DNA from: Haloarcula sp. DT43
GTDB lineage: Archaea; Halobacteriota; Halobacteria; Halobacteriales; Haloarculaceae
Length of the DNA stretch: 64,000 nt
NCBI RefSeq assembly: GCF_037078405.1
Contig: NZ_JAYMGZ010000001.1
Span: 186,001 to 250,000, forward strand
Reading direction: 5' to 3'
Shown: positions 33,408 to 51,583 of the stretch, one piece after another
How positions within the stretch are numbered: the stretch's first letter is position 1
Layout of the letters: each line of letters opens with the position of its first letter
Translations under genes and position numbers: made by a program
Notes under the pieces: generated by a model
The model's input: the letters and a program-made list of their open reading frames with translations, nothing else
Told to the model about the DNA's origin: nothing
Database searches by the model: none

Positions 33408-36400
33408 TCACATGAAGTCCGCAATACCTGACTGTTTGTTGTGGTCGTTCTCGAACACCGACTCGATTTTCCGCTCCAGGATTTTGAGTCGCTGTTTCGT
33501 GTAGTCCCGCGCGCCGAACTCGTCGGCGACGCGGATGGCCGTGTCGATGTACTTGTTGACCGACCCCTCGTGGACCGTGAGGTTCACTCGGCCGCCACAC
33601 TCCCGGCAGTCGCCGGTCAGCGGGGCGCGCCGGAACGACTCCCCGCAGTCCAGACACCGGACCTCCTGCCTGGAGAACGCCCGGAGGTTCCCGATGAGGT
33701 CCGGCAGGAAGTGGTACTCGATGATGCGCTCGGCCACGTCGCTCTCGACGACGGCCCGGAGCTTCCGGGAAATCTCCAGTTGGGCGTCCATCTTGTCCTC
33801 CATCGACCCGAGCGTCTTGTACGCCGAGAGGTCCGGCCCCGCCGCGATGTTGGCCGTGTCGTGAGTGTGGCGGAACTCGGTGTACTCCCGGTCGGTCCCC
33901 AGCGTCTCCTCGGCGATTTTCATCACGTCCTCGACCGCCGTCGGGTCTTTCATCTCGCGGGTGGCCTCGTAGAACTCCCGGGGGTACGACTCCATGATGT
34001 CCATGTTGTGGGCCTCGTCGTCGATTTCGCTCGGGTCGATGCGCGAGGACATCACCAGCGGCGCGTCCATCTGCCCACCGCGCTGGTTCGGCAGATAGGA
34101 CTTCGAGAAGTTCAGCAGGCCGTCCATCAGGAGCATGACGCAGTCTTCGTCGCCGTCACACTGCTTTTGCGAGGTGTCGTTCGCAATCAACGAGTGCGTG
34201 TCAGCAACGGTGAGACAGTACGTGTGGTCGGCGTCTGACTGGGCCGTCGTGACGTCGGTAATCTCGTCGACGAAATACTCACCGCTCCCGCCGTCGAAGA
34301 CCCGCCGCCCGGACGGTGCCGTCTCCGTAACGTGTTTGGCCAGTCGATTCCGTTTTCGCGAGAGATGTAAGTCGACCGTCTCCGCGAAACGAACGGCATC
34401 GGTCGACGTGATGTGGAGAACGTACGATGGTGCCGACATCGATTCGTCGTCGATATCGTAGAAGTCCGGGAATTTCTCGACGAGCGGAACGGGATCGGTG
34501 GTAGTGACACGTGCCGTGATCCCAAGGCGAGTGAGCAAGGCGAACAGGTCCTCTTTCAGTTCCCGACTGACCGTCGTCGCCGATACCTCTAGGGCGTTCT
34601 TGGCAACCGTCCCGTCACCGCTGAAATAGCCGCTGAGATACGCGGCGACGAGACTATCGGGCGCGTCGAATATGCACGGCGGCACTCGCTTGTCCTTCGA
34701 ACCCGTTCCACAACCGAGCACCGTCTCGAAGAACACGCGCGGCAGTCGCCCCGAAACGGTGACTTTCACATCGTTCTCTCGGTAGGCGTTGACGCCGAGC
34801 GCATCCTCGAACGCTTCGACAAAGAAGTCACGTGCCTCTGTTTCGTCTCCCGAGATCGTCGTCTGATGAATCGTCCCTTTCGCCGTCGACTGCTCACGAG
34901 CGAATCCCTCTGCCGCGTAGTAGCCAAGTAACGTCGCGAGTTCCTCGTCGAGCCCGACGAACCGGTCGATTTCGACGGAGTCGCGCTTCATGCCGAGCCC
35001 AATGTCTTCCGGGAGTCGCTCGACGACGGCCTCTCCCGTGCCGACCAAGTCGACCAGCAGAGAGACGGGCAGACTCTCCCGGTAGACGTAGTTGCTCAGT
35101 GCCTTCTTGCTGAGCCCAAGAAACTCTGCTGTGCTCTTCAATGGATAGAACGTCCCCTCCCAATCTGCTTCGAGCGCCTCCGTAAAGAAGTCGTAGAGCT
35201 CCTCTTTGTCCAGGCCTTTCACCATGAGTGACTCGTTGGGGACGTCGTCGCAGTCGATGAACTCTTCGAGGAGATCGAACCGAGCACCGGTGCCTTCGAT
35301 GTCGACCGCTTTGGGTTTCACTAGCGAATCTGACGTGGTAAGTTCGCTCGCCCGTTTACTCGTGAGTCCGTCGCCGTCGAAGACGTGCATCTCGTGGTCG
35401 GGCGTTACTGTGACCTCACGACCGCTCCGCGTTTCGACGGTGATGAGATGGTCGGGTGACGGGTGTTTTGACACAGCTTCGACCGGTTTCCGAACGACGT
35501 TCCCGTCTTCGTCCAGCGAGGGCACCCGAACCTCCCCGTCGAGCTCCGTAACGAGCGTGCCGAAGTCGTCTTCCGTTTGGTCGTCCAGGCGTTCCTCGAC
35601 GAACGCCGCGATATCGTCGTAGCGCCACTTGTCGCTCTCGTTCTCGTACCAGAGTTTCGTCTCCGGATGGAAGCAGTTCCGACGCTTAGCCGCGTGAAAA
35701 TACGGATGTGCATACCCTACGGCCGCTGATGTGAAGCCGACGACGCGACCGACGGTCGCAGCGCTGGTGTGGGGGGCCATCCCGAACACGAGTTCGCCGA
35801 CGAGGTCCTCGCGGTCGTCGAACTCGTAGAACCGCTCCAGCCCGTAGTACTGTTCGAGGAGGTCGTCGACGAAGCGGGCGGTCTGGAGCATGTGTTCGGC
35901 CGCGCCATCCGAGAGGACGATGTCCTGGACCTTCAGTTCGACCAGTTGGTCGTCGTGGGTCAGCGGGTCGCCGTGGATGTCCTCCTCGTAGCCCAGCCCG
36001 CGGAGCCGCTCGGCGGAGACGTCCAGTTCCGAGGCCCGGACCGCCGTCACCGGCAGGTCAGTCATGTCGTAGCGCACCGTGCCGTCCTTGAACGCCGACA
36101 CGTCGTGTTTCGCCCGGAGGACGCCCTTCTCCATCGGCTCCGGGACCTTCTCCTCGGAGGTGAGCCCCTTGACGGCTTTCAGCTGTTCGAAGGCCGTCTC
36201 GCGTTCGCCGACGGTCTGCAGGGCGTCCCGATACGCTTCCTGCAGGTCAAGCGTCTTGTACTGGGTCGGCGAGGCGAGCGTCTCACAGCGGGCACACTCC
36301 GCGCGGCCGGACTCGTCGCGCTCGACCTCGGCCTCGCAGTCGGGACAGACGTACACCGGCTCGGTGGTGCCGCCACACTCGGGACAGCCCGCCTGGTGGG

Positions 36401-38564
36401 TCTCGGTCCCGCAGTCGGGACAACGCCGACGGGCGATTTCCACCTCGACGCGGCCGGGCGTGTCGCTCATCCCGTCGGCGTGTTTCGTCGCCTTCGCCAC
36501 GTCCCGCTGTGCGCCCCCGGCCTCGCCGATGGGGCTGAGCGTGTGGACGGCCGGCGAGAGGTCACGGCGCTCGGATTTCTCCGGGCGGCCCATCCGGTTG
36601 CCGATGCGTGTCGGCGCGCGCTCGCGGACCTCGAAGGGCGCGATTTCGTTGACGGCCTCGATAGCGTTTTGCCCGTCTTCGGGTTCGGCGTCGTCCGCGA
36701 CACCGATGGCGTCGACCGACTCGCTCTCGCCGTATGTCCGCGCGTCCGCCGAGAGGTCAGCGCGAGTCCAGTCCCGCTCCAGCGAGCGGTCGAACCCGAG
36801 CGTCCGAACCAGCGGCACCCAGTCCGTGACGGTGATGGTCTCGTCACCCTGGGTGTGTTCGACGAGCAGGTGCTCCAGTGTCTCCCGGACGGCGTCGGTC
36901 CGGGGCAGGACGAGCGCGCCGTCGTCGGTGTGGGCGGCGGCCGCGTTCTCCGCCTCGGGGTCGGCGTACGCGCCGTCGGCCTGGGCGACGTGGCCGTCCC
37001 CGACGGCGTCGGCGAGCGCACACACCTGGTCGACGCTCACGTCGTGCCAGAGGTAGGTGTACTTCGGGTGCAACGGGGCGTCGTACTCGGTGGCCCACTC
37101 GATGGCCTCGTCGGCGCTCGGGTCGGCCAGGTCGGTATGGGGCGAGTCCCGCATCGCCTGTACGTCCGCGCCGCCGGCGTCGAGGTCCTGCTCCCACCAC
37201 TCGACGGTGTAGGAGGCCGGCGCGAGCGGATGGTTGTTCTCGACGAACTCCCCGTAGTTGACCAGGTACTCCCCGAGGTCGAGTATCTTTTCGACGCCGT
37301 TGCGCACCTCCAGGGCCTCCTCGGCGTCGTCGATGCGGCGCACGTCGCCGTTGGCGAGGCGCACGGTCGGTCCCTCGATGGTGTCGACCGGGACGACCCC
37401 GGCGGCTTTCCCCGGCCGCTCGGTCTTGATCTGCGTGCCGGTCGCCAGGAAGTCGTCGACGAGGTGCATCGTCGCCGGGTGGACGCCCGCCGTCGCGAAG
37501 CCGTGGTTTCTCGCGCGGCCGTAGCGCAGTCGGAACCCGCCCGCCTTCGACGGGTGGGAGAACACCGGCCGGCCGGCGATGAGGTCCCGGAGGTACTTCT
37601 CCGCGGGCTCGACGCGTGGCGGTCCGGCCTGCTCGCTGGTGTCCTCGCCGTCGGCGTCCCCGCCTTCGCTCGCGTCGTCGCCGCTCGCGTCCTCTGTGTC
37701 CTCCTCCTTGTCGGCTTCGTCCTTGCCGATGGTCCCGTCGATGAGGTCCTGGAGCCACGGCCAGTCGACCTCGTCGAGGTTCCGCGTGTAGCGCTGAATC
37801 TTCGGCGCTTTCAGCGCGATGCCCTCGGCCAGCACCAGACACATCCCGCCCCGGGGCGAGTTCGAGTCGACGCGTTCGAGGTCGCGGTACCCGGACACCT
37901 CCTCGTCGCCGGTCGCCTCGCCGTCGAGCATGATAGGCATGTGCTCGGCGATGAACTTCGTCTCCTTCTCCTTCGGGGAGTACTGCAGGCCGGTGTCCTT
38001 GTCGTAGAGGTCGATTTCCTCGGCGTACCGGCCGATTTCCTCCTCGCGGGCCTTGTACTGGTCGATGCCCAACAGTGCGCGGGCGTAGTCCGCGACCAGC
38101 ACCGAGAGGGCCTGGGCCGTCCCGCCGGCGGAGCGAATCGGGCCGGCGTAGTAGACGTTGATGAACTCCGTGCCGTCGTCGTTTTCCAGCAGTTCGACGC
38201 GGTCGATACCCTCGATGGGGGCGGCGACGACCCCCTCGGTCAGCAGGGCGACGGCGGTCCGGACCGCGCCCTCGACTTTCCCCTCGCGGCTGTCGTAGTC
38301 GCCGACGGTCCCCTCGACGAAGTCCTCGACCAGCTCCAGGGCGGCCTCCTCGCGGGACATCTGGCCCTCGAGTTCGCGGACCCGCTCGGCGACACCGTCG
38401 ATGCCGAGGATGTTCTCGACGCGGTCGGCCATGTCCCGGGCGGTCGGAATCTCGACCTCGGGCTTCGGGTCGCCGCCCCGCTCCTTGGCCCGTTCGGCCA
38501 CGTCGAAGGCGGCTTCGAGCTGGGTTTCTAGCGTTTCGAAGTACTGTTCGTCGGCCTCCCGCAT
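33408..38564 (-). CDS. polC: DNA polymerase II (PolD) large subunit DP2, intein-containing precursor
   Basis: A 1718-residue precursor of the PolD catalytic subunit. Host residues begin MREADEQYFETLETQLEAAF and end in a zinc module (RCLDCGESFRRAP...CRECGG) and a PCNA-motif-like tail (NKQSGIADFM). A second zinc module (CPDCGTETHQAGCPECGG..., residues about 710-765) precedes the catalytic core whose metal-binding motif is CDGDEDCVMLLMDGLLNF. That motif is interrupted by an intein between AAKRRN and CDGDED (precursor residues 964-1468); the mature protein is 1213 residues. A long acidic linker (around 280-320) is a halophilic insertion. It forms PolD with DP1. One base separates its start from the upstream gene's stop. 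Confidence 0.95.
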   Translation of the reverse strand: MREADEQYFETLETQLEAAFDVAERAKERGGDPKPEVEIPTARDMADRVENILGIDGVAERVRELEGQMSREEAALELVEDFVEGTVGDYDSREGKVEGAVRTAVALLTEGVVAAPIEGIDRVELLENDDGTEFINVYYAGPIRSAGGTAQALSVLVADYARALLGIDQYKAREEEIGRYAEEIDLYDKDTGLQYSPKEKETKFIAEHMPIMLDGEATGDEEVSGYRDLERVDSNSPRGGMCLVLAEGIALKAPKIQRYTRNLDEVDWPWLQDLIDGTIGKDEADKEEDTEDASGDDASEGGDADGEDTSEQAGPPRVEPAEKYLRDLIAGRPVFSHPSKAGGFRLRYGRARNHGFATAGVHPATMHLVDDFLATGTQIKTERPGKAAGVVPVDTIEGPTVRLANGDVRRIDDAEEALEVRNGVEKILDLGEYLVNYGEFVENNHPLAPASYTVEWWEQDLDAGGADVQAMRDSPHTDLADPSADEAIEWATEYDAPLHPKYTYLWHDVSVDQVCALADAVGDGHVAQADGAYADPEAENAAAAHTDDGALVLPRTDAVRETLEHLLVEHTQGDETITVTDWVPLVRTLGFDRSLERDWTRADLSADARTYGESESVDAIGVADDAEPEDGQNAIEAVNEIAPFEVRERAPTRIGNRMGRPEKSERRDLSPAVHTLSPIGEAGGAQRDVAKATKHADGMSDTPGRVEVEIARRRCPDCGTETHQAGCPECGGTTEPVYVCPDCEAEVERDESGRAECARCETLASPTQYKTLDLQEAYRDALQTVGERETAFEQLKAVKGLTSEEKVPEPMEKGVLRAKHDVSAFKDGTVRYDMTDLPVTAVRASELDVSAERLRGLGYEEDIHGDPLTHDDQLVELKVQDIVLSDGAAEHMLQTARFVDDLLEQYYGLERFYEFDDREDLVGELVFGMAPHTSAATVGRVVGFTSAAVGYAHPYFHAAKRRNCFHPETKLWYENESDKWRYDDIAAFVEERLDDQTEDDFGTLVTELDGEVRVPSLDEDGNVVRKPVEAVSKHPSPDHLITVETRSGREVTVTPDHEMHVFDGDGLTSKRASELTTSDSLVKPKAVDIEGTGARFDLLEEFIDCDDVPNESLMVKGLDKEELYDFFTEALEADWEGTFYPLKSTAEFLGLSKKALSNYVYRESLPVSLLVDLVGTGEAVVERLPEDIGLGMKRDSVEIDRFVGLDEELATLLGYYAAEGFAREQSTAKGTIHQTTISGDETEARDFFVEAFEDALGVNAYRENDVKVTVSGRLPRVFFETVLGCGTGSKDKRVPPCIFDAPDSLVAAYLSGYFSGDGTVAKNALEVSATTVSRELKEDLFALLTRLGITARVTTTDPVPLVEKFPDFYDIDDESMSAPSYVLHITSTDAVRFAETVDLHLSRKRNRLAKHVTETAPSGRRVFDGGSGEYFVDEITDVTTAQSDADHTYCLTVADTHSLIANDTSQKQCDGDEDCVMLLMDGLLNFSKSYLPNQRGGQMDAPLVMSSRIDPSEIDDEAHNMDIMESYPREFYEATREMKDPTAVEDVMKIAEETLGTDREYTEFRHTHDTANIAAGPDLSAYKTLGSMEDKMDAQLEISRKLRAVVESDVAERIIEYHFLPDLIGNLRAFSRQEVRCLDCGESFRRAPLTGDCRECGGRVNLTVHEGSVNKYIDTAIRVADEFGARDYTKQRLKILERKIESVFENDHNKQSGIADFM
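34161..35675 (-). other. Intein in PolC/DP2 (505 residues) with LAGLIDADG endonuclease
   Basis: Block A starts CFHPETKLWYE; block B is VTVTPDHEMHVFDG; blocks C and E of a LAGLIDADG endonuclease are LLGYYAAEGFA (Glu instead of Asp as acidic residue) and YLSGYFSGDG; block F includes HTYCLTVADTHSLIAND. The C-terminal junction reads TSQKQ|CDGDED: the last intein residue is Gln, not Asn, and the penultimate is Lys, not His. A Cys follows as extein +1. Gln-ended PolII inteins are known from Pyrococcus abyssi, and splice. A helix-turn-helix-like part (TAEFLGLSKKALSNYVYRES) lies between blocks B and C. Base composition is visibly less GC-rich than the exteins. Confidence 0.9.
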
Positions 38565-42200: not shown

Positions 42201-42210
42201 ACTATTAGTA
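42201..42210 (+). promoter_or_regulatory. TATA-like box of the arg leader
   Basis: ACTATTAGTA stands 25-34 bases before the ATG of the arginine-rich short ORF at 42235. Confidence 0.4.
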
Positions 42211-42234
42211 CTCGACTCACACAGCAGAAAGTAC

Positions 42235-42330
42235 ATGACGCGGCCCCCTCGTACCACGACGCTCGCTTCGGACAGCGAGGGGTCCGTCCGTTTCTCCCCA
42301 CGCCGGCGACGACGACCGGGCCGTTTCTAG
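42235..42330 (+). CDS. Candidate arginine leader peptide, 31 residues
   Basis: This short frame begins MTRPPRTTTLASDSEG and ends SPRRRRRPGRF. Nine of 31 residues are Arg, including five consecutive codons (CGC CGG CGA CGA CGA; CGA is unusual in this genome). The TAG stop falls in the loop of a GGGCC-GTTTCTA-GGCCC hairpin at 42318-42334. Its position 135 bases upstream of argG and the TATA box just before it suggest a translated attenuator leader responding to charged tRNA-Arg. An alternative is a chance frame in a GC-rich stretch. Confidence 0.4.
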   Translation: MTRPPRTTTLASDSEGSVRFSPRRRRRPGRF

Positions 42331-42464
42331 GCCCACTACTACTCACTCTTCATTCGACAGGTTCGCTTCGTCGCCAGACACCGTCGTCGTCGGTTCGGCG
42401 GACACTCGGTCGCTGCTGACCGGAAACCGACAGGCACACCACGGCACCAATCCAGAACACATCC

Positions 42465-43712
42465 ATGCCAGAAGGAAACGGAACCGTCGCGCTCGCGTTC
42501 TCGGGCGGGCTCGACACGACAGTCTGCGTATCGCTGCTGAAAGAGGAGTACGGCTACGACGAGGTCGTCGGCGTCACCGTCGACGTCGGCCAGCCCGATT
42601 ACGAGTTCGAGGAGGCCGAGGAGACGGCCGAGGCGCTGGGCGTTGAGCAGTTCGTCGTCGACGCCAAGGCGGAGTTCGCCGACCTCTGTATCGAGGCCGT
42701 GAAGGCCAACGCCGACTACCAGGGCTACCCGCTCGGGACCGCCCTCGCGCGCCCGGTCATCGCCAAGGCTATCCTCGAAGTCGCAGAAGAGGAGGGCTGT
42801 TCGGCCGTCGCCCACGGCTGTACCGGCAAGGGCAACGACCAACTGCGCTTCGAGGCCATCTGGCGCGACTCCGACCTCGACGTCATCGCGCCGGTCCGCG
42901 AACTCGGGCTGACCCGCGAGTGGGAAAACGAGTACGCGGCGGAGAAGGGCCTGCCCGTCGAGGGCGGCGACGGCGGCCGCTACTCCATCGACACGAACCT
43001 CTGGAGCCGCTCCATCGAGGGCTCCGAACTCGAGGACCCGAGCACCATCCCCGACGACGACATCTACAAGTGGACCGAGAACCCCTCGGACAAGGACGCT
43101 GAACTCGTCGACATCGAGTTCGAGGAGGGCGAGGCCGTCGCCGTCGACGGCGAGGCCCTCGACACCGTCTCGCTCATCGAACAGCTCAACGAGCAGGCCG
43201 GGGCCCACGGCATCGGCCGCACGGACATGATGGAAGACCGCATGCTCGGGCTGAAGGTCCGCGAGAACTACGAGCACCCCGCGGCCACGGTCCTGCTGAC
43301 GGCCCACGAGGCGCTCGAAGGCCTCGTCCTCACGCAGGAGGAGCGCCAGTTCAAGGCTCAGGTCGACCAGGAGTGGTCCCAGAAGGCCTACCAGGGCCTC
43401 GTCGACGCGCCGCTGACGGGCGCACTCGAAGCGTTCATCGACGACACGAACGAGCGCGTCACCGGCAGCGTCACCGTGAAGCTCGAGGGCGGGCACTGCC
43501 GCCCGGTCTCGCGCGAGTCCGACTACGCGGTCTACAGCGAGTCCGCGGCCTCCTTCGACGAGGAGGACGTCTCCGGCGGCATCACCCAGCAGGACGCCAC
43601 CGGCGTCGCGAAGTACCACGGATTCCAGTCCCGTCTCGCCAACAAGATTCTCGAAGACGTGAAGAAAGGCGCGGCCGTCACCGACGGCAGCGGCGAGGGT
43701 ACGGAGGAGTAA
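42465..43712 (+). CDS. argG: Argininosuccinate synthase
   Basis: A 415-residue argininosuccinate synthase. The N-type ATP pyrophosphatase loop LAFSGGLDTTVCVSLL is at residues 9-24, the citrulline/aspartate site has YPLGTALARPVIAKA and VAHGCTGKGNDQLRFE, and the tetramerisation part follows. It joins citrulline and aspartate using ATP. It forms a transcript with argH (4-base gap) and is probably governed by the leader region upstream. The preceding in-frame start is ATG 42465. Confidence 0.95.
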   Translation: MPEGNGTVALAFSGGLDTTVCVSLLKEEYGYDEVVGVTVDVGQPDYEFEEAEETAEALGVEQFVVDAKAEFADLCIEAVKANADYQGYPLGTALARPVIAKAILEVAEEEGCSAVAHGCTGKGNDQLRFEAIWRDSDLDVIAPVRELGLTREWENEYAAEKGLPVEGGDGGRYSIDTNLWSRSIEGSELEDPSTIPDDDIYKWTENPSDKDAELVDIEFEEGEAVAVDGEALDTVSLIEQLNEQAGAHGIGRTDMMEDRMLGLKVRENYEHPAATVLLTAHEALEGLVLTQEERQFKAQVDQEWSQKAYQGLVDAPLTGALEAFIDDTNERVTGSVTVKLEGGHCRPVSRESDYAVYSESAASFDEEDVSGGITQQDATGVAKYHGFQSRLANKILEDVKKGAAVTDGSGEGTEE

Positions 43713-43716
43713 ACGG

Positions 43717-45246
43717 ATGAGCGACGGCGGGGACCGCGACGCGGACGAGGCCAACGGCGGCGAGGCCGCGGCTGACGCGAATGCCGACGGCGACGAGACC
43801 GTCGTCCGCCGCGAGCGCTTCGCTGGCGGCCCCGCCCGCTCGTTCCTCTCCTCGCTCGCCGACGACGAGCGCATCTTCGCGGCCGACCTGGCCGTCGACC
43901 GCGCCCACGTCGTGATGCTCGCGGAGCGGGAGATAATCGACCGCGAGACGGCCGGCGAGATTCTCGCCGCGCTCGACGGCGTCGAGGCGTCCGGCCACGG
44001 CGCGCTCCCCGACGGCGAGGACGTCCACGAGGCCATCGAGAGCGCGGTCATCGACCGCGTCGGGCAGTCGGGCGGGAAGATGCACACCGCCCGCTCGCGC
44101 AACGACGAGGTGGCGGCCTGCATCCGGTACCGCCTGCGCGAGGACGTGCTCGATCTGGTCGAGACCGTCATCGGGGCCCGCGAGCAGTTGCTCGACGTGG
44201 CCCGCACCGAGCGCGAGACGGTGATGCCAGGCTACACGCACCTCCAGCCCGCACAGCCGACGACGGTCGCACACTGGGTCCTGTCCTACGAGCAGGCGCT
44301 CCAGCGCGACACCGCGCGGCTGCTCGATGCCTACGGGCGAATCAATCAGAACCCGCTCGGCTCGGCCGCCTTCGCCGGGACGCCGTTCGACGTGGACCGC
44401 GAGCGAACCGCGGAACTGCTCGGGTTCGAGTCGGTCGCGGAGAACTCGATGGACGCCTCGGCGACCCGTGACTTCCTCGTCGAGACGACGAGCGCCGTCG
44501 CGACGCTGGCGACGACGCTGTCGGGGCTGGCCGAGGACGTGGTCGTGATGGCGAGCAAGGGCCACGTCGACCTCCACGACGACTACGCGTCCACGTCGTC
44601 GATCATGCCCCAGAAGAAGAACCCCGACACGCTGGAACTGGTCCGCGGTCGCACAGGCGACGCCGTCGCCGGGCTGAACGGCCTGCTGACCAACCTCAAG
44701 GGCCAGCCCCGCGCCTACAACCGCGACCTCCAGCGCGCCGGCCGCCACGCCTGGGACGCCATCGACAGCGTCACCGAGAGCGTGGAAGTAGCCGCCGGCG
44801 CGGTCGCGACGGCCGACTGGCCTGCCGAGACACTTGAAGCCGCGGCCACCGACGGGTTCGCGACTGCGACTGGCGTGGCCGACCTGCTGGCGATGGCCGG
44901 CGTCCCCTTCAGGACGGCCCACGAGGTCGTCGCCGAGGCGGCCGCGGGCCTGGGTCCCGACGAGGACGCGCCCGACTACGCGGCGCTGTCGGCCGTCGCC
45001 GAGGACGTGCTGGGCAAACCCCTGTCGGCGTACGTCGACCGGGAGGCGCTGGAGGCCGCGCTCGACCCCACGGAAAGTGTCGCCATGCGGGACTCTCGCG
45101 GCGGACCGGCCCCCGAAGCCGTCGCCGAGCAGGTGGCGACGGCAGCGGACGCGCTCGCGGTGGACAGCGACGCGCTGGCCGACCGCCGGCATGCGGTTTC
45201 ACGGGCGGCCGACCGCCGCCGGACGGAGGTGGACCGATATGTCTGA
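43717..45246 (+). CDS. argH: Argininosuccinate lyase
   Basis: A 509-residue member of the fumarase/aspartase superfamily. It carries IDRVGQSGGKMHTARSRNDEVAACIRYRLRE, MPGYTHLQPAQPTTVAHWVLSYEQ and the mobile signature TSSIMPQKKNPDTLELVRGR. It splits argininosuccinate to arginine and fumarate. A purine-rich Shine-Dalgarno-like GGAGG near 43702-43706 lies before the ATG. The N-terminal 25 residues are an acidic extension (MSDGGDRDADEANGGEAAAD). Confidence 0.94.
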   Translation: MSDGGDRDADEANGGEAAADANADGDETVVRRERFAGGPARSFLSSLADDERIFAADLAVDRAHVVMLAEREIIDRETAGEILAALDGVEASGHGALPDGEDVHEAIESAVIDRVGQSGGKMHTARSRNDEVAACIRYRLREDVLDLVETVIGAREQLLDVARTERETVMPGYTHLQPAQPTTVAHWVLSYEQALQRDTARLLDAYGRINQNPLGSAAFAGTPFDVDRERTAELLGFESVAENSMDASATRDFLVETTSAVATLATTLSGLAEDVVVMASKGHVDLHDDYASTSSIMPQKKNPDTLELVRGRTGDAVAGLNGLLTNLKGQPRAYNRDLQRAGRHAWDAIDSVTESVEVAAGAVATADWPAETLEAAATDGFATATGVADLLAMAGVPFRTAHEVVAEAAAGLGPDEDAPDYAALSAVAEDVLGKPLSAYVDREALEAALDPTESVAMRDSRGGPAPEAVAEQVATAADALAVDSDALADRRHAVSRAADRRRTEVDRYV

Positions 45247-45270
45247 GCGACCACCGTCCCCTCGCGGGAC

Positions 45271-45368
45271 AATTATGCCATAATTCTGATATACAATTCA
45301 GTAACGTCGCGGATTCGGGAGCTTTACACCGTTAGGGCGTAGTCTGTGTAGTAAATTTATTCTGATAT
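45271..45368 (+). promoter_or_regulatory. AT-rich regulatory region of the lysW-argF transcript
   Basis: It contains the perfect palindrome AATTATG-C-CATAATT (45271-45285) and a 10-base direct repeat ATTCTGATAT at 45283-45292 and 45359-45368. The TATA-like CTTTAAGT at 45378-45385 follows, 27-34 bases before lysW. Such AT-rich palindromes in a GC-rich genome are typical sites of Lrp/AsnC-type regulators; which protein binds is unknown. Confidence 0.55.
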
Positions 45369-45377
45369 GTTCGAAGG

Positions 45378-45385
45378 CTTTAAGT
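45378..45385 (+). promoter_or_regulatory. TATA-like box for lysW
   Basis: CTTTAAGT is 27-34 bases before the lysW ATG. Confidence 0.6.
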
Positions 45386-45411
45386 GGGTCGCTATCACAG
45401 GATGAACCACA

Positions 45412-45576
45412 ATGGCAGAATGCATCGAGTGCGGGGCCGACGTGACCCTGCACGACGACCTCGAAGTCGGAGAGATTGTCGACTGTGCGACCTGTGGTGC
45501 CGAACTGGAAGTCGTCGGCACGGACCCCGTCGAGCTCGACAGCGCGCCCGAGCTCGAAGAGGACTGGGGTGAGTGA
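45412..45576 (+). CDS. argW: Amino-group carrier protein LysW/ArgW
   Basis: A 54-residue carrier protein. It has a zinc ribbon (ECIECGADV and DCATCGAEL: cysteines 4, 7, 25, 28) and the conserved C-terminal EDWGE, whose terminal glutamate gamma-carboxyl is linked to the amino group of glutamate or alpha-aminoadipate by ArgX/LysX. Intermediates stay bound to it through the ArgC, ArgB, ArgD steps. Gene order (with argG, argH, argF) indicates arginine synthesis rather than lysine, since haloarchaea make lysine by the diaminopimelate route. It is too short to be detected easily, but it is unmistakable. Confidence 0.93.
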   Translation: MAECIECGADVTLHDDLEVGEIVDCATCGAELEVVGTDPVELDSAPELEEDWGE

Positions 45577-45660
45577 GGTGTTCGCGGTGGCGCGGCGCAC
45601 TGCGCCGTATCCGACCGTGGCGCCTGTGGCCGCGAGCCGCGAACTGACGGAGGCCGAACC

Positions 45661-46590
45661 ATGAAAGTCGGACTCCTCTACTCGCGCATCCGCCGGGACG
45701 AGAAGCTCCTGCTGTCGGAACTGCGCGAGCGCGACCACGAGATAGAGAAGATAGACGTCCGCAAACAGCAGTTCAACATCAGCGAGGCCCCCGAGGCCTT
45801 CGCGGACCTCGACATCGTCGTCGACCGCTGTCTGGCGACCAGCCGCAGCGTGTACGCGACGAAGTTCGCACAGGCCTACGGCGTCCCCGTGGTCAACGGG
45901 CCCGAGGTCGCCAACACCTGTGCGGACAAGGTCAACAACAGCCTCGCGCTAGAGGCTGCGGGCGTGCCGACGCCCAACACCGACGTGGCGTTCACCAAGG
46001 ACGCCGCGCTGGAGTCCATCGAGAAGTTCGGCTACCCCTGCGTCCTCAAGCCCGTCGTGGGCTCGTGGGGCCGCCTGATGGCGAAGATAGACTCCCGCTC
46101 GGCCGCCGAGGCCATCCTGGAACACAAGGAGACGCTCGGCCACTACGAGCACAAAATCTTCTACGTCCAGGAGTTCGTCGACAAGCCCGGCCGCGACATG
46201 CGCGTGCTGGCCGTCGACGGCGAGCCAATCGCGGCGATGGTCCGCTCCTCGGACCACTGGCTCACCAACGCCGCCAAAGGAGCCGAAACCGCCGAGTTCG
46301 AACTGGACGGCCGCGCGCTGGAACTGGTCGAGAAGGCCTCCGACGCCGTCGGCGGCGGGCTGCTCGGCATCGACCTGATGGAGGTCGGGGTGTCGCAAGG
46401 CGACACCCAGGACGCGAGCGACGACGAGTCGCGAGCGCGTGAGTTCGAGGACTACACGGTCCACGAGGTCAACCACACCGTCGAGTTCAAGGCGCTGAAC
46501 GAGGTCACCGACGTGGACGTGCCCGCGGAGGTCGTCGACTGGCTCGAAACCAAGGCGGCGACCGAGAGTGACGCCGAGGTGACGGCATGA
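45661..46590 (+). CDS. argX: Glutamate--LysW ligase ArgX (LysX family)
   Basis: A 309-residue RimK-type ATP-grasp ligase. MKVGLLYSRIRRDEKLLLSELRERDHEIEKIDVRKQ at the N-terminus, then VNGPEVANTCADKVNNSLALEAAGVPTPNTDVAF, CVLKPVVGSWGRLMAKIDS, ILEHKETLGHYEHKIFYVQEFVDKPGRDMRVLAVDGEPIAAMVR, and VEFKALNEVTDV at the end. It attaches the substrate amino group to the C-terminal Glu of LysW using ATP. In this cluster the substrate is presumably glutamate. The last four bases overlap the argC ATG (ATGA). Confidence 0.88.
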   Translation: MKVGLLYSRIRRDEKLLLSELRERDHEIEKIDVRKQQFNISEAPEAFADLDIVVDRCLATSRSVYATKFAQAYGVPVVNGPEVANTCADKVNNSLALEAAGVPTPNTDVAFTKDAALESIEKFGYPCVLKPVVGSWGRLMAKIDSRSAAEAILEHKETLGHYEHKIFYVQEFVDKPGRDMRVLAVDGEPIAAMVRSSDHWLTNAAKGAETAEFELDGRALELVEKASDAVGGGLLGIDLMEVGVSQGDTQDASDDESRAREFEDYTVHEVNHTVEFKALNEVTDVDVPAEVVDWLETKAATESDAEVTA

Positions 46591-47624
46591 CGTACACGGC
46601 GAGCGTCGTCGGCGGTTCGGGCTTCACCGGCGGGGAACTGCTCCGCCTGCTCGACGGCCACCCCGAGTTCGAACTGGCCCAGGCGACAAGCCGCTCGAAG
46701 GAGAACAAGACCGTCGGCCACTCGCACCCGAACCTCCGGCACTCGGACCTGCGTTTCTCCTCGCCGGAGGACCTGGAATCGGTCGACGTACTGTTCGCCG
46801 CGACGCCCCACGGCGTCTCGATGGAGCAGATAGACGCGTTTCAGGAGGCCGCCGGCACGGTCGTCGACCTCTCGGCGGACTTCCGACTCGATTCCGAGGC
46901 CCAGTACGACGAGTGGTACGACGGGCACACGCGCCCGGACCTGCTCGAAGAGAGCGAGTACGCGCTGCCGGAACTCAACCGCGGCAATCTCGAAGGCGCG
47001 GACCTCATCGCTTCGGGCGGCTGTAACGCCACAGCGACGATTCTGGGCCTGCTCCCGCTGTTCGAGGCCGACATCCTCTCCGGCGACGAGCAGGTCGTCG
47101 TCGACGTGAAGGTCGGCTCCAGCGAGGGCGGGGCCGGCGGCGGCGAGGCCTCCAGCCACCCCGAGCGCTCGGGCGTCGTCCGCCCGTACGCGCCCACGGG
47201 TCACCGCCACGAGGCCGAGATTCAGCAGTTCCTCGGTATCGACGTGTCCTTCACCGTCCACGCGGTGGACATGATCCGCGGCGCGAGCGCGACCTGCCAC
47301 GTCTTCCCCGAGGGCCCGGTTTCGAAGGGCGACCTCTGGGGAGCCTACCGCGGGCAGTACGAGGACGAACCGTTCGTCGAACTCGTCGCCGGCGGTGGCG
47401 GCGTCTACCGCTACCCCGAGCCCAAGTCGGTCGCGGGCACGAACCGCGCCGAGGTCGGCTTCGAACTCGACCCCGGAAACAAGCGACTGGTCGTGTTCTC
47501 GGCCATCGACAACATGATGAAGGGGTCGGCGGGACAGGCCGTTCACGCCGCGAACGTCGCCCTCGGCATCGAGGAGACGGCGGGCCTGGAGTTCCAGGGA
47601 CTCCACCCCGTCGGCGCACCGTAA
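46587..47624 (+). CDS. argC: LysW-glutamyl-phosphate reductase (ArgC/LysY)
   Basis: A 345-residue ArgC/LysY-type dehydrogenase. The NADP loop VVGGSGFTGGELLRLLDGHPEFELA starts it; the catalytic Cys is in LIASGGCNATATIL and the His in PTGHRHEAEIQQFLG. It reduces the LysW-bound glutamyl phosphate to semialdehyde. The GGGAGAGGGEASSHPER loop is the small insertion common in LysW-specific enzymes. Overlap by 4 bases with argX and spacing of 18 bases to argB. Confidence 0.9.
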   Translation: MTYTASVVGGSGFTGGELLRLLDGHPEFELAQATSRSKENKTVGHSHPNLRHSDLRFSSPEDLESVDVLFAATPHGVSMEQIDAFQEAAGTVVDLSADFRLDSEAQYDEWYDGHTRPDLLEESEYALPELNRGNLEGADLIASGGCNATATILGLLPLFEADILSGDEQVVVDVKVGSSEGGAGGGEASSHPERSGVVRPYAPTGHRHEAEIQQFLGIDVSFTVHAVDMIRGASATCHVFPEGPVSKGDLWGAYRGQYEDEPFVELVAGGGGVYRYPEPKSVAGTNRAEVGFELDPGNKRLVVFSAIDNMMKGSAGQAVHAANVALGIEETAGLEFQGLHPVGAP

Positions 47625-47629
47625 CCCCT

Positions 47630-47635
47630 GGAGGT
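47630..47635 (+). promoter_or_regulatory. Shine-Dalgarno site of argB
   Basis: GGAGGT lies seven bases before the argB ATG (47643). It stands out because most starts in this genome are leaderless or overlap the previous stop. Confidence 0.65.
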
Positions 47636-47642
47636 AGTTTTC

Positions 47643-48503
47643 ATGACTGTAGTCATCAAAGTCGGTGGCGCTCGCGCGGTCGACCCCGCGGGGGCCCTTG
47701 CGGACGTGGCATCGTTAGTGGCAGACGGCGAGCGGGTCGTGGTCGTCCACGGCGGCTCGACGAAGGTCGACGAGACGCTCGAACGGCTCGGCGTCGAACC
47801 GGAGTACGTCGAGACGCCGTCGGGCATCGTCGGCCGGTTCACCGACGAGACGACGATGGAGGTGTTCGAGATGGCCTTCGGCCACCTCAACACCCAGCTC
47901 GTCGCCGGCCTCCAGAGCGAGGGCGTCGACGCGGTCGGGCTGAACGGCGTCGACGGCAAACTGCTCTACGGACCGCGCAAGTCCGCAGTGCGGGTCGTCG
48001 AGGACGGCAAGCGCAAGATTCGCCGTGGTGACCACTCGGGCACCATCAAGCGGGTCAACGGCGACCTGCTGGAGACGCTGCTTTCGGATGGCTACACGCC
48101 GGTCGCGGCACCGCCGATGGCCGGCGACGACGACGGCGAGGTAATCCCAGTGAATACGGACGCCGACCGCTCGGCGGCCGCCATCGCCGGCGAACTCGAC
48201 GCGACGCTGGTCCTCCTGACCGACGTCGAGGGCGTCTACGCGGACCCCGAGGACCCGGCGACGCTCATCGAGGCCGTCGAGACGGCCGCCGACTGGGACG
48301 CCCTCGAAGACGCGGCCGAGGGCTTCATGAGCCGGAAGATAATGGCCGTCGAGGAGGCCCTCGACGGCGGCGCGCCCGAGGCGGTCGTGGCCGACGCCAA
48401 CGCCGACGAGCCGATTTGCTCGGCGCTCGACGGCGGCGGCACGCACGTCTACGCCGGCGCACTCGCACAGGACGACCAACAGACGGAGGAAACAGACACA
48501 TGA
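47643..48503 (+). CDS. argB: LysW-glutamate/acetylglutamate kinase (ArgB/LysZ)
   Basis: A 286-residue amino acid kinase-fold protein. It begins VVIKVGGARAVDPAGAL, has VVVHGGSTKVDETLERL, VGLNGVDGKLLYGPR (LysW-type, lacking the acetylglutamate motif), KVNGDLLETLL and PVNTDADRSAAAIAGELDATLVLLTDVEGVY. It phosphorylates the gamma-carboxyl of LysW-bound glutamate. The stop overlaps the argD start (ATGA). Confidence 0.9.
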   Translation: MTVVIKVGGARAVDPAGALADVASLVADGERVVVVHGGSTKVDETLERLGVEPEYVETPSGIVGRFTDETTMEVFEMAFGHLNTQLVAGLQSEGVDAVGLNGVDGKLLYGPRKSAVRVVEDGKRKIRRGDHSGTIKRVNGDLLETLLSDGYTPVAAPPMAGDDDGEVIPVNTDADRSAAAIAGELDATLVLLTDVEGVYADPEDPATLIEAVETAADWDALEDAAEGFMSRKIMAVEEALDGGAPEAVVADANADEPICSALDGGGTHVYAGALAQDDQQTEETDT

Positions 48504-49627
48504 GCGGATTCGTCTTCAACGAGAAACCTATCCAGATAGAGCGCGGCGACGGCGCGTACGTCTACGACGACGGCGGCACAGAGTACCTAGACATGGGCGC
48601 GTCCTACGCCTGCGTCCCGCTCGGGCACGGTCACCCGGCGGTTCAGGACGCGGTGAGCGAGCAACTGGAGAAAATCACCTACGTGCAGGCGTCGTACCCC
48701 AACGCCGAGCGGACGGCGCTGTACGAACTGCTCGCCGACACCGCGCCGGACCCAATCGACAAGACCTGGCTCTGTAACTCCGGGACCGAGGCCAACGAGG
48801 CGGCGCTGAAGTTCGCCCGCTCGGCCACCGGGAACTCCAAAATCGTCGCGACGATGCAGGGGTTCCACGGCCGGACGATGGGTGCGCTGGCGACGACCTG
48901 GAAGGACAAGTACAAGAAGCCCTACGAGCCGCTCATCGGCGACGTGGAGTTCGTCCCCTACGACGACAGCGAGGCGCTGGCCGAGGCCGTCGACGAAGAC
49001 ACGGCCGCGTTCATCGTCGAACCGGTCCAGGGCGAGGGCGGCATCAACCCCACCTCGGACGGCTACCTCGAAGCCGCCCGGGAGATTACCGAAGAGGCCG
49101 GAGCGGCGCTCATCTTCGACGAGGTCCAGACGGGCATGGGCCGGACCGGCGCGCTGTGGAACTCCCAGCGGGCCGACGTCGCGCCCGACATGATAACCGC
49201 GGCGAAGGGGCTTGGCAACGGTCTCCCCGTCGGCGCGACGCTGTGCCGGGACTGGATAGCCGAGGACTACGGCTCCCACGCATCGACGTTCTCCGGCGGG
49301 CCGGTCATCTCCGCGGCCGCCGGCGCGACGGTGTCGACCATCGTCGAGGACGCCGTGCCGGAGAACGCCGCCGACATGGGCGAGTACCTCCAGGCGGAAC
49401 TGGAGGCGGCTATCGGCGACGACGTGCGGGACATCCGCGGCGAGGGCCTGATGATCGGCGTCGAGGTCGGCCGCGGCGCGAACGCGGCGCTGAAGAAGCT
49501 CGCGCTGAACCACCAGGTGCTCGCGCTGCCGGCCGGCCGCACCGTGGTCCGACTGCTCCCGCCGCTGACCATCGCCGAGGCCCACGCCGACGCCGTCGTC
49601 GACGCGATGGTGGAGGTGGTGGGATGA
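48500..49627 (+). CDS. argD: LysW-semialdehyde aminotransferase (ArgD/LysJ)
   Basis: A 375-residue class III PLP aminotransferase of acetylornithine/LysJ type. GAYVYDDGGTEYLDMGASYACVPLGHGHP at the N-terminus, CNSGTEANEAALKFAR, AAFIVEPVQGEGGINP, IFDEVQTGMGRTGALW, and the PLP lysine in MITAAKGLGNGLPVGATL. It converts LysW-bound semialdehyde to the amine using glutamate. Overlaps argB and argE by 4 bases each. Confidence 0.92.
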   Translation: MSGFVFNEKPIQIERGDGAYVYDDGGTEYLDMGASYACVPLGHGHPAVQDAVSEQLEKITYVQASYPNAERTALYELLADTAPDPIDKTWLCNSGTEANEAALKFARSATGNSKIVATMQGFHGRTMGALATTWKDKYKKPYEPLIGDVEFVPYDDSEALAEAVDEDTAAFIVEPVQGEGGINPTSDGYLEAAREITEEAGAALIFDEVQTGMGRTGALWNSQRADVAPDMITAAKGLGNGLPVGATLCRDWIAEDYGSHASTFSGGPVISAAAGATVSTIVEDAVPENAADMGEYLQAELEAAIGDDVRDIRGEGLMIGVEVGRGANAALKKLALNHQVLALPAGRTVVRLLPPLTIAEAHADAVVDAMVEVVG

Positions 49628-50685
49628 GCGAAGCCGCGACGCGCGAGGCCGACACGGAGGCCCGCGACCTGCTGGAGACCATCGTCCGCACGCCCTCGGT
49701 CTCGCGGAACGAGCAGGCGGCCGCCCAGCGGCTGGTCGAGTTCTTCGAGGCCCACGACCGCGAGGCGTGGCTCGACGAGGTCGGCAACGTCCGCGCGCCC
49801 GACGACGACGGCGTCCTGCTGACCTCTCACATCGACACCGTGCCGGGCGACATCCCGGTCCGCGTCGAGGAGACCGACGAGGGCGACGTGCTGTGGGGCC
49901 GCGGCAGCGTCGACGCGAAGGGCCCGCTGTGTGCGATGGCCGTCGCGGCTGTCCGCACCGGGGCCTCCTTCGTCGGCGTCGTCGGCGAGGAGATCGACTC
50001 GAAGGGTGGCCGCTACCTGGTCGAGGACCGCGAGACGGCACCGGGAGCCGTCATCAACGGCGAGCCCTCCGGCTGGGAGGGCATCACGCTGGGCTACCGC
50101 GGCCTGCTGGCCGGGACCTACGTCGCCACGAGCGAGTCCGGCCACTCCTCGCGCCCGGAGAACAACGCCATCCAGGACGCCATCGACTGGTGGTCGTCGG
50201 TCGACGACGAGTTCGCCACCGACGAGTGGCACCCCGTCTTCGAGCGGGTCACCTGCAAACCCGTCGAGTTCAAGGGCGGCACGTCGACCGACGGGCTGAG
50301 CGTCGAGGCGACGATGGACGTCCAGCTACGGGTGCCCCCGGAGTACAGCACCGACGAAATCCGGGAAATCGCCGACGGGTTCCTGGAGAACGGCACGGTC
50401 AACTGGGACGACCGGGTCGAACCGGTGATGCAGAGCCCCCGGACCAACGTCGCGCGGGCGTTCCGGGCCGCCATCCGCCAGCACGAGGGCGACCCCACGC
50501 TGCTGCGCAAGACCGGCACCAGCGACATGAACGTCTACGCGAAGGCGTGGGACTGTCCGATGGTGACCTACGGGCCCGGCGACTCCGACCTCGACCACGC
50601 GCCCAACGAACACCTCCCGCTCGACGAGTACGACCGCTCCGTCGCGGTGCTCGAAACCGCGACCGAACGCCTGCTGGAGGACTAA
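49624..50685 (+). CDS. argE: LysW-ornithine hydrolase (ArgE/LysK)
   Basis: A 353-residue M20 metallohydrolase. TSHIDTVPGDIPV holds the first metal ligands (His, Asp), followed by LWGRGSVDAKGPLCAMA (bridging Asp), VGEEIDSKGGRYLVE (catalytic Glu pair) and SDMNVYAKAW. It releases ornithine from LysW. The tight ATGA junction with argD and the adjacent argF (1 base apart) show a single transcript. Confidence 0.9.
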   Translation: MSEAATREADTEARDLLETIVRTPSVSRNEQAAAQRLVEFFEAHDREAWLDEVGNVRAPDDDGVLLTSHIDTVPGDIPVRVEETDEGDVLWGRGSVDAKGPLCAMAVAAVRTGASFVGVVGEEIDSKGGRYLVEDRETAPGAVINGEPSGWEGITLGYRGLLAGTYVATSESGHSSRPENNAIQDAIDWWSSVDDEFATDEWHPVFERVTCKPVEFKGGTSTDGLSVEATMDVQLRVPPEYSTDEIREIADGFLENGTVNWDDRVEPVMQSPRTNVARAFRAAIRQHEGDPTLLRKTGTSDMNVYAKAWDCPMVTYGPGDSDLDHAPNEHLPLDEYDRSVAVLETATERLLED

Positions 50686-50686
50686 C

Positions 50687-51583
50687 ATGGACATACTCGA
50701 CGTCGACGACCTCACGACCGACGAACTGACCACCGTCCTCGACCGGGCCGCGGCCGTCAAGGCCGACCACGGCGAGGGAGGGTCGAGCGACCTGCTCGAC
50801 CAGCAGACGCTCGGGATGATATTCGAGAAACCGTCGACCCGGACCCGCGTCTCCTTCGAGACGGGGATGACGCAACTGGGCGGCCACGCCGTCTTCCTCG
50901 GCCCCGACGACATCCACCTGGGCCACGGCGAACCCGTCAAGGACACCGCCCGCGCGCTCGGCCGCTACGTCGATTTCATCATGGCCCGCGTGTTCGACCA
51001 CGCCGACGCGGAGGAACTGGCCGAGTACGCGGACGTCCCGGTCATCAACGGCCTGACCGACGACGCTCACCCCTGCCAGACGCTCGCCGACCTGCTGACG
51101 GTCCGCGAGCAGTTCGGCGACTTCGAGGACGTCTCCGTGGCGTGGGTCGGCGACGGCAACAACGTCTGCCAGTCGTTCGTCATCGGCGCGGCGATGGTCG
51201 GCCTCGACCTCACCGTCGCCACGCCGGAGGGCTACGGCATCTCCCACGACGTGGCCGACCGCGCCGCCGCCTTCGGCAACGCGCCCGAGACCACCCACGA
51301 CCCCGAAGCGGCCGTCGCCGACGCCGACGTGGTGTACTCCGACGTGTGGGTCAGCATGGGCCAGGAGGACAAACGCGAGCAGAAACTGGCCGACTTCGAG
51401 GGGTTCCAGATTACGACGGGCCTGCTCGAAGACCGGCCGTTCATGCACTGTCTCCCCGCCCACCGCGGCGAGGAGGTCACCGACGACGCCATCGAATCCG
51501 ACAACGCCATCGTCTGGGACCAGGCGGAAAACCGGCTGCACGCCCAGAAGGGGCTGTTGGTCTGGCTGTCCGAGCAGGCGTAA
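50687..51583 (+). CDS. argF: Ornithine carbamoyltransferase
   Basis: A 298-residue ATCase/OTCase-family enzyme. Carbamoyl-phosphate binding motif EKPSTRTRVSFETG (47-60), DAHPCQTLADLLT, and ornithine-binding HCLPAHRGEEV. SMGQEDK in the C-terminal domain also fits OTCase. It converts ornithine and carbamoyl phosphate to citrulline. Last gene of the lysW-argF transcript; a hairpin follows its stop. Confidence 0.94.
   Translation: MDILDVDDLTTDELTTVLDRAAAVKADHGEGGSSDLLDQQTLGMIFEKPSTRTRVSFETGMTQLGGHAVFLGPDDIHLGHGEPVKDTARALGRYVDFIMARVFDHADAEELAEYADVPVINGLTDDAHPCQTLADLLTVREQFGDFEDVSVAWVGDGNNVCQSFVIGAAMVGLDLTVATPEGYGISHDVADRAAAFGNAPETTHDPEAAVADADVVYSDVWVSMGQEDKREQKLADFEGFQITTGLLEDRPFMHCLPAHRGEEVTDDAIESDNAIVWDQAENRLHAQKGLLVWLSEQA

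Follow-up and report, generated by a model that had tools for sequence, protein, structure and literature searches.

Does the short, arginine-rich open reading frame (ORF) that precedes the argininosuccinate synthase gene argG of Haloarcula sp. DT43 govern the arginine genes behind it, and if so, how might arginine be sensed and the signal be passed on? The locus lies in a 64,000-nucleotide stretch of DNA (the window), in which a first-pass annotation, made from the letters alone, had proposed an arginine attenuator composed of an Arg-rich leader ORF, a hairpin at its stop codon and an alternative pairing of the Arg codons, all 5′ of argG. We find each of these elements in the sequence where that annotation placed it (Table 1). 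Comparative sequence analysis strongly supports one part of the proposal, a predicted Arg-codon leader ahead of an arg operon, but the alternative pairing of CGACGACGAC with GTCGTCGTCG is not a class-wide switch.

The leader ORF and the arg gene cluster

Table 1. Positions of the leader features and arg genes of Haloarcula sp. DT43, in window coordinates.
Feature	Position	Strand	Basis
TATA-like box TATTAGTA	42203–42210	+	sequence; box centre ~28 nt 5′ of the uORF ATG
Leader ORF, 31 codons, Arg-rich toward its end	42235–42330	+	sequence; orthologues in 30/30 Haloarcula and class-wide
Hairpin I within the leader ORF, start-proximal codons with conserved GGGTCC region	42237–42292	+	fold −25 kcal/mol; arm covariation
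Putative regulatory Arg codons CGC CGG CGA CGA CGA, one codon 5′ of hairpin II	42301–42315	+	codon counts
Hairpin II, GGGCC-gtttcta-GGCCC	42318–42334	+	arms 42318–42322 and 42330–42334; covarying arms
G-free C/U/A tract immediately 3′ of hairpin II	42332–42355	+	G counts over 94 leaders
Haloarculaceae element: S1 CCGTC (42381–42385) with GGCGG (42397–42401); loop GTCGGTT (42389–42395) with AACCGAC (42425–42431)	42381–42431	+	alignment
argG, argininosuccinate synthase	42465–43712	+	NF010392, 663 bits (cut-off 512); TIGR00032, 458 bits (cut-off 268)
argH, lysW/argW, lysX/argX, argC, argB, argD, argE/lysK, argF	43717–51583	+	NCBIfam matches

The leader ORF translates as MTRPPRTTTLASDSEGSVRFSPRRRRRPGRF, ending in PRRRRRPGRF before the stop codon, and has the nine Arg residues and the five consecutive Arg codons, three of them CGA, that had been described for it. 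Its TAG stop codon (42328–42330) lies for the most part in the loop of hairpin II, again much as claimed. Nine co-directional genes, argGHWXCBDEF, follow 3′ of the ORF; since argH to argF continue on the strand of argG, the leader stands ahead of the whole arginine pathway cluster, and the close spacing of the genes suggests that they form an operon, with co-transcription inferred. The closest named relative of this argG is that of Haloarcula salina (98% identity). No Rfam riboswitch or leader family matches the window above its gathering score. Elsewhere in the window, a 1718-codon ORF on the minus strand (33408–38564) resembles, as judged by eye only, an intein-interrupted DNA polymerase D large subunit.

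An AT-rich promoter-like box, defined as a 7-mer with at least six A/T, is found ~28–31 nt 5′ of the leader (uORF) ATG in 94 of 94 distinct leaders, compared to 5% of control positions. A box-to-ATG spacing of ~30 nt is typical of leaderless haloarchaeal transcripts, and with the centre of the TATA box ~28 nt before the uORF ATG, the transcript of the window should be leaderless or nearly so. A start of argG transcription 3′ of position 42330 would have refuted the proposed attenuator. We searched for a promoter-like box that might mark one, in the absence of transcript data, and find none directly before argG in the Haloarculaceae; the only box is that before the uORF, so that the leader promoter should be the sole promoter in this family. 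A second AT-rich promoter-like box is seen near −30 of argG in Natrinema-, Natronococcus-, Haloferax- and Halorubrum-like genomes, which makes a second, unattenuated promoter likely in these lineages. A recurrent CGGTTAGC motif also stands 40–100 nt before argG in loci of these four types and is absent in the Haloarculaceae.

Conservation and specificity of the leader

The lack of any Arg-rich short ORF at this place in related species would likewise have spoken against an attenuator. Such an ORF is present before argG in 30/30 Haloarcula genomes with a readable argG upstream region and in all 78 further loci of the class Halobacteria, which come from named organisms, mostly of other genera, and for which ORF length was left unrestricted; Haloarcula and these loci provide the 94 distinct leaders used throughout. 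A covariance model was built from 67 of the 94 leaders and applied to an even sample of 145 genomes of the class. It gives exactly one match in 88 of them (E of 0.001 or better), each on the strand of argG and 75–182 nt 5′ of that gene. Among the 57 genomes that gave no match, twenty were inspected, chosen to cover the groups concerned; in 19 of these the leader is present but its hairpin has diverged, with arms that are, for example, GGGGTC/GACCCC in Halobacteriaceae-type and GGCCC/GGGCC in Halorubrum-type genomes, where the genus labels are inferred from likeness to named loci. The leader is thus present in 107 of the 108 class genomes examined (88 by the model and 19 by inspection); the one inspected genome from which it is absent has an unusually diverged argG (57% identity). 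Haloferax also carries the element, and GTG is apparently the start codon of one Halorubrum-type leader. Leader length ranges from 22 to 87 codons, and in four leaders in-frame insertions with hairpin-forming repeats extend the ORF, up to 87 codons, with the frame intact. In a 197-genome sample of the phylum the covariance model, which is tuned to Halobacteria, finds no match outside that class, and a screen of 29 methanogen argG loci reveals no Arg-run uORF.

Specificity within the genome was assessed by scanning 1.25 Mb (the window plus 60 stretches). A leaderless-type box precedes 1196 short ORFs in this DNA, of which 51 also form a hairpin at the stop codon; the argG leader is the only one of the 1196 in which a stop hairpin is followed by a G-free run of at least 19 nt. 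A motif search for second copies in this genome returned two sites, both unrelated and located within or next to other genes, and the one Leu-rich candidate from a de novo scan has no leucine gene behind it; all three were discarded. No comparable leader is found upstream of hisG, trpC or ilvB, and argF, checked as a further amino-acid gene, belongs to this very arg cluster. In Haloarcula a near-invariant CTTATGTACACTTCTGTACGTTAGTGTTCAGTA directly adjoins the start of trpC; it resembles a palindromic operator that overlaps the TATA region.

Codon choice and RNA structure

CGA had been suspected to be rare in these genes, and it is: it makes up 8.2% of the Arg codons in seven window genes and 1.6% of 1634 in the 94 argG genes, compared to 62% of 471 in the last 12 codons of the leaders (Fisher p about 6e-196, a statistic that ignores relatedness). 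The enrichment is concentrated in the four codons immediately 5′ of hairpin II. Arg occupies the last codon that lies wholly before this hairpin in 94/94 leaders, in 84% as CGA; it is found at the second to fourth codons back in 71–80% and farther away in 26% and less. Because the Arg run covaries with no other segment among 57 representatives (z −0.3 with s1, +1.8 with s2 and −1.8 with the downstream region), decoding accounts for the choice of CGA better than pairing does. The tRNA-Arg with the UCG anticodon should be the sole reader of CGA in archaea. According to Elf and Ehrenberg (PMC1183508), it is the synonymous codon with the most starvation-sensitive tRNA charging that attenuators employ, and selective charging has been verified for Arg isoacceptors in E. 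coli (PMC1183508). Putative sensing of arginine via the leader codons is well supported by these comparisons; that charged tRNA-Arg itself is what is sensed is an inference, made without expression data.

Covariation was evaluated in 57 representatives less than 75% alike by asking, for each leader, whether its own two arms pair with lower energy than arms swapped between leaders. Hairpin I pairs better with its own arms (−25.9 vs −21.6 kcal/mol; z −9.8), as does hairpin II (z −4.5), and for both hairpins 0 of 2000 permutations reached that strength. Four arm combinations are seen in hairpin II: GGGCC/GGCCC, GGCCC/GGGCC, GGGGC/GCCCC and GGGGTC/GACCCC. A stop hairpin is present in 88/94 leaders, compared to 7% of shuffles, and in 87/94 the frame is maintained from the ATG to a stop codon located within hairpin II (no ribosome data bear on this). 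An uncorrected MAFFT alignment, in which some loops are misplaced, has double changes in 3/6 pairs and modest Watson-Crick covariation, and nothing exceptional emerges when single sequences are folded, whether the whole leader or the part downstream. The frame of four Natronorubrum/Salinadaptatus leaders passes through hairpin II and stops ~65–80 nt farther on, with the Arg codons and the hairpin kept; these leaders are a natural experiment on whether the hairpin must contain a stop codon.

Hairpin II is followed by a G-free tract of ~15–17 nt in all lineages, and nearly every one of positions 3–16 after the hairpin is G in only 0–2% of the 94 leaders. The tract is composed of C, U and A and in these 94 leaders lacks the U-run that a terminator of the trp/his type would require. 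Neither is there evidence of a class-wide antiterminator pairing among the 57 representatives (segment 2:3 z 0.3; segment 2:4 z −0.6). Pairing of the GGGTCC region with one or the other arm of hairpin II slightly exceeds shuffles (60 vs 41 and 77 vs 64 matches), yet shows no covariation, and was rejected as an antiterminator. The 10-base alternative pairing that the first-pass annotation had invoked exists, in that CGACGACGAC (42307–42316) is complementary to GTCGTCGTCG (42383–42392), but only in the closest Haloarcula clade is it strong; as a class-wide switch it was rejected, with a z of −1.8, and it is missing in Natrialbaceae and Haloferacaceae.

Between the leader and argG, the Haloarculaceae have an element of their own, which may be a pseudoknot or two alternative hairpins, as read from an alignment with no formal pseudoknot test. 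Its stem is CCGCC/GGCGG or CCGTC/GACGG in other members, and its loop variants GTCGGGT, GTCTGTCGA and GCCGGGT match ACCCGAC, TCGACAGAC and ACCCGGC, respectively, 25–45 nt before the argG ATG. The arms apparently change together between subclades of the family, an impression of compensating changes drawn from the alignment; RNAalifold support for this region downstream of the leader is weak. In four Haloarcula-type genomes an extra hairpin of ~80 nt is inserted within the element.

A proposed mechanism and competing explanations

From the observed anatomy, position, codon bias and covariation of the leader, we propose, with a probability of roughly two in three, a translation-dependent attenuator in which arginine is sensed through the speed at which CGA is read and the ribosome acts by occluding hairpin II; the output step is inferred, as there are no expression data. 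The first ribosome would start at the 5′ ATG and follow RNA polymerase, and hairpin I, to which we attribute a pacing function by inference only, would possibly pause the polymerase and keep the two in step. When charged tRNA-Arg is ample, the ribosome, the presumed sensor, would clear the CGA codons, terminate at the stop codon and leave. Hairpin II would then form and, together with the unstructured G-free tract now laid bare, serve as the putative negative signal, ending transcription prematurely or otherwise reducing expression of the genes beyond it. Under a shortage of charged tRNA-Arg(UCG), the ribosome would wait on the CGA codons with its leading edge covering the 5′ arm of hairpin II, ~3–13 nt from the A-site codon; hairpin II could not form under that edge, and polymerase would proceed into argGHWXCBDEF. 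The switch would thus be the ribosome itself, by occlusion, and a conserved antiterminator would be unnecessary.

We favor termination as the output because the leader is class-wide while its distance to argG and the sequence between them are not, and because a hairpin alone can terminate transcription in a reporter in Haloferax volcanii, where such a hairpin, located 5′ of a termination site, ended 59% of transcripts (PMC7237163). Known Haloferax terminators have a T-stretch (PMC7237163) and aCPSF1 binds a U-tract (PMC8716108); the tract that follows hairpin II has neither, and termination at this point is therefore unproven. Three further features count against the proposed attenuator: a second promoter, which seems from its sequence to precede argG in lineages such as Natrinema, Natronococcus and Haloferax and would partly bypass the leader, the displaced stop codon, ~65–80 nt on, of the four Natronorubrum/Salinadaptatus leaders, and the merely modest Watson-Crick covariation of the uncorrected alignment.

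The absence of a canonical U-run terminator also leaves room for the same sensor to have a different output, in which stalling on the leader alters the translation or stability of the argG mRNA, by rearrangement, reinitiation or cleavage, and does not terminate its transcription. The extra structured element 25–45 nt before the argG ATG in Haloarculaceae, with which the CGA run pairs over 10 nt in the clade of the window, would suit such a role, but the element and the pairing are restricted to a family and a clade, respectively, while the leader is class-wide; moreover, nothing near the argG start covaries with the leader across the class, and several lineages start argG from a downstream promoter of their own. 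We consider this output unlikely, if still worth keeping in mind. We give little credence to the idea that the nascent chain itself is the regulator, an Arg-rich peptide that would arrest the ribosome at the stop codon with arginine, as in the fungal arginine attenuator peptide (AAP), or with another metabolite, as in SpeFL and TnaC. An Arg run with a PG(R/L) ending is common, and a ribosome held at the stop, which lies inside the hairpin in 87/94 leaders, would overlie hairpin II as well as some of the tract; however, the endings vary freely (PGR, RGR, ALR, PAL, PGL, GRF, GRL, GLC, APSGQ, PGLLAQ) while the RNA hairpin is kept, and the stop codon is displaced in some leaders. A comparison of the leader C-termini reveals no conserved peptide residues near the putative arrest site. 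The last residues vary because leaders differ in the frame in which they read through the conserved GGGCC/GGCCC hairpin; what is constant is the in-frame Arg codons and the RNA structure, which favors codon sensing over a peptide arrest that would leave the choice of CGA unexplained.

Equally improbable, in our judgment, is that the ORF is a separate small gene for a short basic peptide with a function of its own, with hairpin II and the tract as its terminator. It does have its own promoter and start codon, and its reading frame is maintained, but the amino-acid sequence of the N-terminal half is poorly conserved, the ORF varies in length from 22 to 87 codons and is never found away from argG in 88 genomes, and no other argG promoter is seen in Haloarculaceae. 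Finally, runs of CGA/TCG triplets are frequent in a GC-rich genome, and CGA repeats of this kind in high-GC haloarchaeal DNA could by chance yield a meaningless ORF; the class-wide conservation of a single-copy, argG-linked leader refutes this explanation, its codon bias and covariation speak against it, and we attach next to no weight to it.

Relation to known attenuators and implications

Leader-peptide attenuation in response to amino acids is textbook bacterial regulation. The argG leader has in common with the bacterial trp, his, leu, thr and ilv attenuators a short leader ORF before a biosynthetic operon, a run of codons for the end product, a hairpin inside the leader ORF, a later hairpin near the leader stop and codons suited to sensing starvation; it meets the trp/his-type criteria of a leader ORF directly 5′ of a biosynthetic operon on the same strand, with co-transcription inferred, and of a run of cognate codons, here Arg codons ahead of arg genes. 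It differs from them in being archaeal, in having a leaderless ORF without a Shine-Dalgarno sequence and Arg codons that abut hairpin II, in the amino acid, arginine, with a strong preference for the single codon CGA, and in lacking a U-run and a class-wide antiterminator (segment 2:3 z 0.3). We do not classify the argG leader as a bacterial-type attenuator, as it fails the U-run terminator and the antiterminator as tested.

The fungal AAP, encoded by the arg-2/CPA1 uORF, and E. coli SpeFL are likewise encoded by uORFs that precede arginine- or ornithine-related genes; both are arrest peptides, and the AAP is not an Arg-codon run. SpeFL responds to ornithine and TnaC to tryptophan. The Rho-dependent tna leader of E. 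coli (TnaC) is similar in that a ribosome at the leader end masks RNA by the stop codon and that unstructured, G-poor RNA comes next, but TnaC depends on its peptide sequence and on free tryptophan, whereas the end of the argG leader peptide varies, and we know of no Rho in archaea. In archaea the counterpart of Rho is aCPSF1/FttA, and the signal known for it is a U-tract (PMC8716108). Mycobacterial leaderless uORFs are also short leaderless ORFs at the 5′ ends of transcripts, in a possible attenuation setting, and are bacterial (PMC4633059). We find no prior description of an archaeal amino-acid leader of the argG type in the open-access literature, with subscription journals and preprints outside the scope of the search, and the novelty of a putative arginine-sensing leader in archaea is provisional.

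The broadest formulation of these findings is that the leader is an ancestral, class-wide haloarchaeal attenuator, formed by a leaderless, CGA-rich ORF with the ribosome as the arginine sensor, by occlusion of one hairpin without an antiterminator and by a new type of archaeal termination signal, a hairpin with a G-free tract and no U-run; taken as a whole this remains tentative, and we rate its chances as somewhat short of even. If true, archaea couple translation to the fate of the transcript at defined sites. The leader would then lend itself readily to testing transcription-translation coupling, as well as termination signals, in genetically tractable haloarchaea, e.g., Haloferax, and would be a natural example of attenuators that use the most starvation-sensitive synonymous codon.
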